IMG/VR virus record: IMGVR_UViG_3300003879_000005
Location: 1 to 20,325 of that record
Origin: a virus
Length of the DNA: 20,325 bases
Reading direction: 5' to 3' (one strand)
In this document: piece by piece, positions 3,996-13,495 of the stretch
Numbering within the stretch: the stretch's first letter is position 1
Layout of the letters: each line of letters begins with the position of its first letter
Program-made: the position numbers and the translations under genes
Notes under the pieces: generated by a model
What the model was told of the DNA's origin: nothing
The model's input: only the letters and a program-made list of their open reading frames with translations
The model's database searches: none

Positions 3996-4438
3996 TTTTC
4001 AAGAGGGTCAATAATGTCCTCTTCGCTGCTGGGCAAGTCGGGGGAGTTGCCAAAATTAAACGTCACATCACCCGTATGATGCTGTTCTTGCTTAACCTCT
4101 TTCCTGTCTACGTAGCCTGCATTGTTCTTAAGGCTAAATAGGACGGTCGCTACATTTAGATCGCCTTTCATGGCACCCTTGATCCACAAGTCTTGGATCT
4201 TGCTCTTTGCCTTTTTTATAGCGTTCAAAAACTCCTCTCCGTTCTCATCTACATAACCCTCGTAATTGAGCAATGACGTCCTTGTGTTGAAATCCAACGC
4301 CAAGGCCAAGCCTTCTATAGTAGGAGGGTCTTTATCGGCCTTACACTGAGCAAAGTAAGCATCAATGGCAGATTGCATGTCTGCTACACTGCTCCACTTT
4401 CTGGGTCGTCCGCCCTTATTTTCTTTACCATCTTCCAT
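3992..4438 (-). CDS. terS: Terminase small subunit
   Basis: A 148-residue protein from the ATG at 4438, which places the typical GGRPRKW motif near the N-terminus; the frame is open to a TTG at 4501, but those 21 extra residues look non-conserved. The small subunit binds the packaging site and loads DNA onto TerL. After GGRPRKW come an IDAYFAQCK helix, a PPTIEGLALALDFNTRTSLL helix-turn-helix, a basic helix (IKKAKSKIQDLW) and an AxxVLFSLKNNAGYVDR segment, the usual order in DNA-packaging gp3-type small subunits of Bacteroidota phages. The tail is acidic. Position directly before terL with a 4-base overlap supports the call. Confidence 0.85.
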   Translation of the reverse strand: MEDGKENKGGRPRKWSSVADMQSAIDAYFAQCKADKDPPTIEGLALALDFNTRTSLLNYEGYVDENGEEFLNAIKKAKSKIQDLWIKGAMKGDLNVATVLFSLKNNAGYVDRKEVKQEQHHTGDVTFNFGNSPDLPSSEEDIIDPLEK

Positions 4439-10395: not shown

Positions 10396-10924
10396 CCTCT
10401 ATGATTTTTTGTTGTGTTGGTGTTGGCATGTAGTTCTTGAGAAGCGCGTCCATGCCTTTGGCAATGGCGAATTGGATAGCCTTATCCATGTTCTTTTCTT
10501 CTATAGGCTTTGGACCTGAGGTCGCCTTGGGCGCCTCCATGTGCATTCTAAAGCGAATCCCACCAACTGCCTCTCTACCAAACTTTACGCCGTGGTCTAT
10601 GTACAAATACACCTTCTTGCCCTTCCAGTCCTTAGCATGTGGAGATTGGAAGATTTGCTCTAATTGCTGGAATTTTTCAGGCCCAAGTAAAAAGGGAAGG
10701 ACATTTGTTTCCTTGAATAGCACCGCTGGTTTGGTTTCCTTACGACCCTTGTGCGATATTTCTTTTTTGACCACTTTGTCAATAGTGACCAATAATCCTT
10801 TGTCGGTTAGACTGCCACCTTTAGCAAACACCTCAAAATGATGCTTTCCTAAAAAAGTGCTTTCCATGTAGTTTTTCCAATGCAAATCTTCATCAACTGG
10901 CATAGTTGTTACTTTTATTCCCAT
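10370..10924 (-). CDS. Putative recombination partner / ssDNA-handling protein
   Basis: A 184-residue protein directly upstream of, and overlapping, the exonuclease gene. It reads HFEVFAKGGSLTDKGLLVTI, then PAVLFKETNVLPFLL, DWKGKKVYLYIDHGVKFGRE and IRFRMH, which looks like a small beta-barrel region: Gxxxx(L)VTIxxV, VLxFxE, and WxGKxVxLYxxxVxFG. I recall this pattern from proteins encoded beside phage exonucleases and proposed to bind ssDNA. The last 50 residues are helical (KAIQFAIAKGMDALLKNYMP). The leader carries the AACAGAGAA motif seen before several genes of this arm. Whether it is an annealase, an SSB or a regulator cannot be said. Confidence 0.5.
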   Translation of the reverse strand: MGIKVTTMPVDEDLHWKNYMESTFLGKHHFEVFAKGGSLTDKGLLVTIDKVVKKEISHKGRKETKPAVLFKETNVLPFLLGPEKFQQLEQIFQSPHAKDWKGKKVYLYIDHGVKFGREAVGGIRFRMHMEAPKATSGPKPIEEKNMDKAIQFAIAKGMDALLKNYMPTPTQQKIIEDAIAKAKG

Positions 10925-12552: not shown

Positions 12553-12906
12553 TTAAGTCTGGCTTTGACATTCGCCCTGTGCTGGTTGGAACAATCCGTT
12601 ATCTCGCAAATATTGGTTGTAATTAGCGTTGACCTGCTCGACCATTTCTTGACTATACTCTTCGCTCTCAATATTGGATTGCTCGTAAAGCGTCATATCG
12701 CACATGATCTTATTAAGTACAGGATCATTAAGCTCAGCACACCTGGCTACAAGTGACCTCAAATAACGTTGAAACTCGTTCATGGGAATCCTGAGCGCTG
12801 CCATAACTTTCGGAGGGATGGCGTTCTCAAACGTCTCATTGAGCAAGTTGGGTACATGGACTTTAAACGGGTGTATGTATGGGCTAAATTCGTCTACTCG
12901 TTGCAT
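12553..12906 (-). CDS. Hypothetical phage protein
   Basis: A 117-residue helical protein (MQRVDEFSPYIHPFKVHVPN) with RIPMNEFQRYLRSLVARCAE and a block LNDPVLNKIMCDMTLYEQSN. The ATG at 12906 is preceded by TTTTTTAACAGAGAAATC, the recurring leader of this arm; the 14 upstream residues of the longer reading are therefore left out. It lies just downstream of the tRNA genes. Unknown function. Confidence 0.55.
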   Translation of the reverse strand: MQRVDEFSPYIHPFKVHVPNLLNETFENAIPPKVMAALRIPMNEFQRYLRSLVARCAELNDPVLNKIMCDMTLYEQSNIESEEYSQEMVEQVNANYNQYLRDNGLFQPAQGECQSQT

Positions 12907-12991
12907 CGTAGTTCTGATTTCTCTGTTAAAAAATAGGGCGGCAACCATGAGACGATCACCGCCCAGAAAACTAAACCCAATAAAAACCTAG

Positions 12992-13065
<74 letters not shown>

Positions 13066-13138: not shown

Positions 13139-13261
13139 TGACCAATGCAGGAATCGAACCCGCTCCTATTCATTCGTTACCTCGTCCTGAGGCGCGACCA
13201 CCAACTCCTTCGGAATCCAACTCTTTACGTCGCGCTAATGCTACCATTACACCAATTGGTC
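13139..13261 (-). ncRNA. tRNA-like element with replaced anticodon arm
   Basis: A 123-base element with tRNA ends: perfect 7-bp acceptor GACCAAT/ATTGGTC with discriminator A, a D-like arm (GTG-TAATGGTAG-CAT), and a T arm GCGGG-TTCGATT-CCTGC with the invariant TTCGA. Between the D and T arms lie about 73 bases instead of 22-34. They hold a perfect 7-bp stem GCGCGAC/GTCGCGC closing a 30-base loop (itself with ATTCC-GAA-GGAGT) and then a small CCTC/GAGG hairpin. No normal 7-base anticodon loop can be drawn. It lies 73 bases upstream of the CAU tRNA on the same strand. Too short for a tmRNA. It may be a tRNA with an insertion, or a tRNA-mimicking RNA. Confidence 0.65.
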
Positions 13262-13276
13262 GGTTGAAACTACAAC

Positions 13277-13495
13277 TTATTGCTTTGGCGCCCACACAGG
13301 ACAATCCTTTCCACATTCACCCAACCATCCTTGCCGCACTTGCTGCATGGAGATATTAAGCCCATACTGAAGCTCTTCAAGCATACCAACATCCTCTTTG
13401 TCAGGCACCATGCCTTCTTTTTCGCAGACAACAAATGGGTTGTGAAATCCATCTTCGTGAAACTCTAGATGTCTGCAATTATCGCATCTTTGCAT
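13277..13495 (-). CDS. Small cysteine-rich (zinc-binding) protein
   Basis: A 72-residue protein starting MQRCDNCRHLEFHEDGFHNP. Cysteines at the start (CDNC), in VVCEKEG, and near the end (GECGKDCPVWAP) form a likely zinc site; CxxC...CPxW is a common arrangement in very small phage proteins. Function unknown. Confidence 0.6.
   Translation of the reverse strand: MQRCDNCRHLEFHEDGFHNPFVVCEKEGMVPDKEDVGMLEELQYGLNISMQQVRQGWLGECGKDCPVWAPKQ

Follow-up and report, generated by a model that had tools for sequence, protein, structure and literature searches.

On the minus strand of the window (the whole metagenomic virus contig analysed here, 20,325 b), positions 13261-13139 encode a 123-nt tRNA-like RNA gene that has a complete tRNA top half, discriminator A73 included, and lacks an anticodon arm. 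The explanation that we prefer, with a probability of roughly 45%, is that an insertion replaced the anticodon arm of a phage tRNA gene, giving a remodelled gene that no longer decodes. Its ancestor would be a phage tRNA gene of the D-arm type GTGTAATGGTAGCA, in which sequence gained by insertion or rearrangement, about 51 nt net, may have taken the place of the anticodon arm. The gene would be co-transcribed with a neighbouring tRNA of anticodon CAU, and the folded top half (acceptor, T, and D arms) would be trimmed by RNase P and 3′ nucleases before the CCA enzyme adds its tail, as expected because the top half of a tRNA is what all these enzymes recognise. The RNA would be unable to read codons, because an anticodon arm is neither present nor restorable by one excision, and the remodelled gene would be of recent origin or in the course of being lost. 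Two sets of evidence pull in different directions: the base rate of interrupted tRNAs in phages and the lack of relatives of the centre favour insertion, whereas perfect ends and a stem at the anticodon position favour a selected, non-decoding RNA.

A tRNA top half without an anticodon arm

Read on the minus strand (RNA nucleotide n lies at window position 13262-n), the 5′ part of the element is GACCAAT TG GTGT AATGGTA GCAT TAGCGCGAC GTAAAGAGTTGGATTCCGAAGGAGTTGGTG GTCGCGC CTCAGGACGAGGTAACGAATGAATAGGA, and the 3′ part that follows is GCGGG TTCGATT CCTGC ATTGGTC A, with no encoded CCA at the end. The first-pass annotation of this DNA had described a perfect 7-bp acceptor, a D-like arm, and a full T arm, and all three are there. 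The acceptor strands GACCAAT (13255-13261) and ATTGGTC (13140-13146) form 7/7 Watson-Crick pairs. The D arm GTGT-AATGGTA-GCAT (13238-13252), common to many phage tRNAs, has four pairs, two of them G-U, and carries A14, G18, and G19. The T arm GCGGG-TTCGATT-CCTGC (13147-13163) is standard, with five pairs, one of them G-U. The elbow bases U8, A14, G18, G19, T54, T55, C56, and A58 make a complete set, and the element has every end feature of an elongator tRNA, i.e., the 7-bp acceptor, the D arm with G18G19, and the T arm TTCRANT. These tRNA-like ends are certainly far above chance. For the T-arm motif GGTTCRANTCC, two occurrences in the window compare with 0.05 expected, and the element is matched with E = 1.2e-7 by a covariance model built from other oversized tRNAs. 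An intact top half argues for an origin in a tRNA gene; its perfection also counts against insertion, because perfect ends are unusual in a relic.

The element was also said to be unlike standard tRNAs and tmRNAs, and this is borne out: its length (122 nt plus the discriminator) is outside the 70-95 nt of elongator tRNAs, and neither the tmRNA mode of ARAGORN nor Rfam gives a match. Of the program checks that had been proposed, ARAGORN in default mode made no call, and no Rfam family matched even at E <= 10. From the D stem to the T stem there are 74 nt (nt 25-98) instead of the usual 23 or so; the gap is thus as oversized as had been claimed, with a count one higher than the 73 given. It contains no anticodon arm. 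Its place is taken, just as described earlier, by a 7-bp stem GCGCGAC/GTCGCGC (13229-13235 and 13192-13198) around the 30-nt loop GTAAAGAGTTGGATTCCGAAGGAGTTGGTG (13199-13228), which folds into a weak inner hairpin and was not found elsewhere in IMG/VR. The minimum-free-energy fold adds a small hairpin CTC-AGGAC-GAG (13181-13191), which may be due to chance, and leaves a 17-nt linker GTAACGAATGAATAGGA unpaired ahead of the T arm (13164-13180). The hairpin had been noted as CCTC/GAGG: it exists, but it is limited to three pairs (CTC/GAG) when the 7-bp stem forms, because CCTC takes the last C of that stem.

Is this centre more structured than expected? Its overall fold has a stability typical of shuffled sequence (z = -0.93, with 17% of dinucleotide shuffles equally stable), in agreement with insertion. 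A perfect 7-bp stem arises anywhere in the centre in 4% of the shuffles, and begins at most 3 nt from the D arm, as it does here, in 0.46% of them (p about 0.005). A stem at the position of the anticodon stem is therefore above chance, a modestly significant result that counts against insertion. It is one of the arguments for a tRNA-like RNA that is under selection but does not decode, similar to RNA C of phage T4, which we regard as possible and rather unlikely. By this account the top half would provide maturation, CCA, and stability, and the central rod might, e.g., bind or distract a tRNA enzyme. The flawless acceptor, D, and T arms with their full set of elbow bases fit such an RNA, as does its location in front of a tRNA and a putative terminator. 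It has a precedent in the T4 RNAs C and D, whose roles are unknown (PMC3014915; PMC9697503), RNA C having a T arm. Yet the centre is no stabler overall than its shuffles, it has no relative in any search and so gives no sign of conservation, and no gene for defence or for a tRNA enzyme was recognised near the element among the proteins scanned. We consider it unlikely, and a degree more so, that the phage has a purpose-built RNA in which a tRNA top half, joined to a private rod at the site of the anticodon arm, would mature and be CCA-tailed as tRNAs are and would act outside translation on a host tRNA enzyme or a defence nuclease. The idea of a tRNA mimic put forward in the first-pass annotation gains no support and is weakened by a test named there, since no relative with the same centre was found; it may nevertheless hold.

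The normal CAU tRNA that had been reported next to the element is indeed intact (12992-13065, minus strand; Rfam RF00005, 69.9 bits) and lies 73 nt downstream, pointing the same way. It is followed by a terminator-like hairpin of 13 pairs with a T-rich tail (12936-12964, minus strand), only suggestive as it overlaps the start of the ORF at 12553-12948. Upstream, a 72-aa ORF (13277-13495, minus strand) ends 15 nt from the element. This arrangement suggests that the element, the CAU tRNA, and the hairpin at 12964-12936 form one small tRNA transcription unit. The terminase of the phage is closest to those of Bacteroidota phages and prophages (33-40%), and its host is therefore probably in this phylum; the exonuclease, nearest to those of proteobacterial phages, keeps the assignment tentative.

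Interrupted tRNA genes in phages

In IMG/VR and the GTDB species genomes we looked for the arms of the element separated by 60-90 nt, kept the elements with fully paired acceptors, and asked whether the removal of one stretch yields a 5-bp anticodon stem with U33. Among the matches listed, the excision of 35-58 nt restores a 5/5 Watson-Crick stem with U33 in 24 of the 57 distinct elements, and 44 of these 57 reach at least 4/5 pairs; among shuffled centres the rate of 5/5 Watson-Crick is about 1-5%. The test is also passed by L140 and L143, archaeal tRNAs with ordinary introns that served as controls. An insert interrupts the majority of the other phage tRNA genes that have these arms and a gap of 60-100 nt. 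This base rate argues for insertion in the window element, whose extra of about 51 nt is within the range of 36-58 nt of the inserts in other phage tRNAs.

The commonest insert, which we call type A, consists of a hairpin followed by C[A/T]GCAA and was found by this motif in at least 54 distinct elements, with total lengths of 109-126 nt and 39-57 nt of extra sequence between the D and T arms. E.g., it is present as a conserved insert of 39-55 nt at L040 7908-8020, L169 8432-8548, L176 595-703, L179 11399-11509, L207 6086-6199, and in about 50 more IMG/VR elements. In the 34 elements whose inner stem is clear, positions 42-43 pair with the two bases that directly follow the D arm, with a mean of 1.57 out of 2. 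The mean falls to 0.77 upon random reassignment (0/5000 as high, a count that is not a strict probability because the elements share ancestry) and to 0.82 for the bases beside the inner stem. Because of this pairing across the insert, we conclude that type A sits within the anticodon stem, with position 28 before it and position 29 after it, in tRNAs with a variety of anticodons. It appears to be a short intron or extra arm of a new kind. Where checked, ARAGORN in its default mode misses type A tRNAs. To our knowledge, no mechanism is known by which such inserts would be removed or tolerated in bacteria, and we found no description of short inserts in phage tRNAs in the open-access literature.

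Type A also occurs in cultured phages, as an unannotated interrupted tRNA in 13 records of Aeh1-like Aeromonas phages (in Aeh1, NC_005260 96526-96637, or L255 2027-2138). The adjacent 122-nt gene (96384-96505, or L255 1885-2006) is annotated as tRNA-Val(CAC) and has a hairpin insert as well, which makes the anticodon call doubtful. The tRNAs of Aeh1 were called by tRNAscan-SE, and introns in tRNAs are not discussed in the corresponding paper (PMC1524935). The excision test thus brought to light numerous phage tRNA genes whose anticodon arm has a short insert, some of them in cultured Aeromonas phages, where they are either unannotated or apparently misnamed. These interrupted tRNAs, including the unannotated ones of Aeh1-like phages, may matter more than the element of the window.

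Other inserts have different motifs or positions. A Cytophagales MAG contig (L144) has four consecutive interrupted tRNAs (625-746, 925-1053, 1207-1320, and 1463-1587), and excision from the third restores Gln(TTG). A Microscillaceae MAG contig (L141) has one (4252-4371) with the same insert motif, AGGTCAA...TTACTYCYAA, which lies in or near the anticodon arm and differs from type A. Five oversized tRNAs followed by a normal one form an array in L225 (811-923, 1134-1241, 1250-1373, 1692-1809, and 1823-1943), several of which have an insert of a third type, made of a hairpin, ACTTAC, and an ACGCAA-like motif in that order. In L071 the anticodon loop of a tRNA (10697-10811) contains a nested minihelix, made of a 7-bp stem, a T arm, and GCCA, that resembles a tRNA without D and anticodon arms. 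Two further tRNAs, L071 1519-1646 and L127 2916-3027, are apparently interrupted in the D loop and not in the anticodon arm.

Excision, relatives, and decay

The window element itself fails the excision test, which is evidence against insertion: with a normal variable loop its best stem has 2/5 pairs, below the usual null score. When the single excision was allowed to take any 15-58 nt, with loops of 7 or 8 nt and variable regions of up to 30 nt, the solutions were contrived. The insertion proposed by the first-pass annotation gains from the base rate of interrupted phage tRNAs, but a simple removable insert is not supported, since no single excision restores the anticodon arm. We rejected an elongator tRNA, whose 5-bp anticodon stem, 7-nt loop, and U33 are absent both directly and after one excision, and also, judging by the excision tests, an archaeal-type or group I intron, there being no insert in an anticodon loop beside an anticodon arm of normal form. 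A group I intron would, moreover, be far larger than 51 nt. L195 1658-1784 is an oversized tRNA whose general layout is like that of the window element, with a CAGCAA insert inside a 5-bp stem (CCTGG/CCAGG) at the anticodon position, and it fails the excision test likewise.

Could the element be the precursor of a working tRNA, e.g., Thr(GGU), from which one or two inserts would be spliced out to leave a GCGCG/CGCGC anticodon stem and the 8-nt loop TTGGTGGT? Interrupted tRNAs clearly occur in other phages, taking out 26 nt gives a 5-bp stem without mismatch, U33 included, and ARAGORN calls a tRNA-Thr(ggt) with a 31-nt intron when introns are permitted, with a broken 3-bp stem. Such a precursor is nevertheless improbable: a variable region of 28 nt would be left on a D arm of the class I type, which is not Ser/Leu-like, whereas class I tRNAs have 4-5 nt there (PMC7609411); two inserts would be needed; and a normal variable loop brings the best stem back to the 2/5 pairs given above.

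Insertion is expected to be a private event, and the searches for relatives are consistent with this. The exact 19-mer of the central-loop core, TGGATTCCGAAGGAGTTGG, has no match in IMG/VR, and a relaxed pattern of the central loop has 21 there, none with tRNA-like context. The D and T arms with a gap of 60-90 nt gave 10 stretches (GCATT) and 75 stretches (GCAC) in IMG/VR, and 0 (GCATTA form) and 9 (GCAY) in genome contigs, and the centre of the window element is absent from all of them. A covariance model of the element found two weak matches of 31-32 bits in 395 Bacteroidota genomes, both as long as ordinary tRNAs (72 and 82 nt), and nothing similar over 30 loci. The search for related elements suggested by the first-pass annotation was therefore negative: no relative shares the centre in IMG/VR, in about 85,000 GTDB species genomes (arm-and-gap pattern), in the 395 Bacteroidota genomes (covariance model), or in GenBank phages, a statement that applies to these collections, those with the arm-and-gap scans being searched with exact arm patterns. 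Close relatives of the phage are also lacking in IMG/VR, where protein searches gave one distant terminase and nothing more, and in the seven prophage regions with terminase relatives no tRNA was found near the terminase.

That the element is merely a tRNA pseudogene in decay, or an assembly error, seems about as improbable as a spliceable precursor. It comes from a 20-kb metagenomic virus contig with no second copy for comparison, and some other oversized elements (L181, L185, L187) have damaged acceptor or T stems. Here, however, the acceptor has no mismatch and the T arm is standard, and inserts of this size are common enough in phage tRNAs that assembly need not be blamed. Among relatives identified by their terminase, none was found with an intact anticodon arm at the same locus, so that the plain decay raised by the first-pass annotation is unproven. 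If the element is not selected, it illustrates how frequently phage tRNA genes are interrupted.

Comparison with known systems

Like the window element, class II tRNAs, tRNA-Sec, and tmRNA are larger than class I tRNAs and have tRNA-like ends. Their variable arms, D arms, tag frame, and pseudoknots are absent from the element, and we rejected all three; for tmRNA, there is in addition no match by ARAGORN in tmRNA mode or by Rfam and no alanine tRNA-like domain. An in-frame GTG...TAG with AAGGAG, seen by eye in the centre, is too short to be meaningful as a tmRNA-like tag. The interrupted tRNAs of L144 and L141 resemble the element in being class I, in having a long insert within the anticodon arm or close to it, and in belonging to Bacteroidota, its likely host group, but their insert motif is absent from it. 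Type A tRNAs (e.g., Aeh1 96526-96637) share with it the D arm type, the T arm, the acceptor, and the total length, and differ in that their anticodon stem is restored across a conserved insert. We do not count the element among them, since it has neither the pairing with 42-43 across the insert nor the hairpin with C[A/T]GCAA. On the type A model it scores 38.7 bits, under the 45-58 of unrelated oversized tRNAs and the 68-98 of members outside the training set, which is a further point against insertion.

The closest parallel for a selected RNA would come from phage T4, whose stable RNAs C and D originate from its tRNA region and have unknown roles (PMC3014915; PMC9697503, Northern blot). No sequence similarity was seen, T4 not being among the blastn matches at E <= 10. 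RNA C (species 1 RNA, NC_000866 70908-71046) is, at 139 nt, longer than a tRNA, as is the window element, and its 3′ end has a perfect T arm, CCGGG-TTCGAAT-CCCGG. Both lie beside a phage tRNA gene and have a tRNA-like 3′ end. RNA C differs in having only 5/7 acceptor-like pairs and no clear D arm. If the window element were selected, it would exemplify a viral RNA of tRNA shape that puts the tRNA maturation enzymes of the host to a non-decoding use, and the old question of the role of T4 RNAs C and D would be revived.
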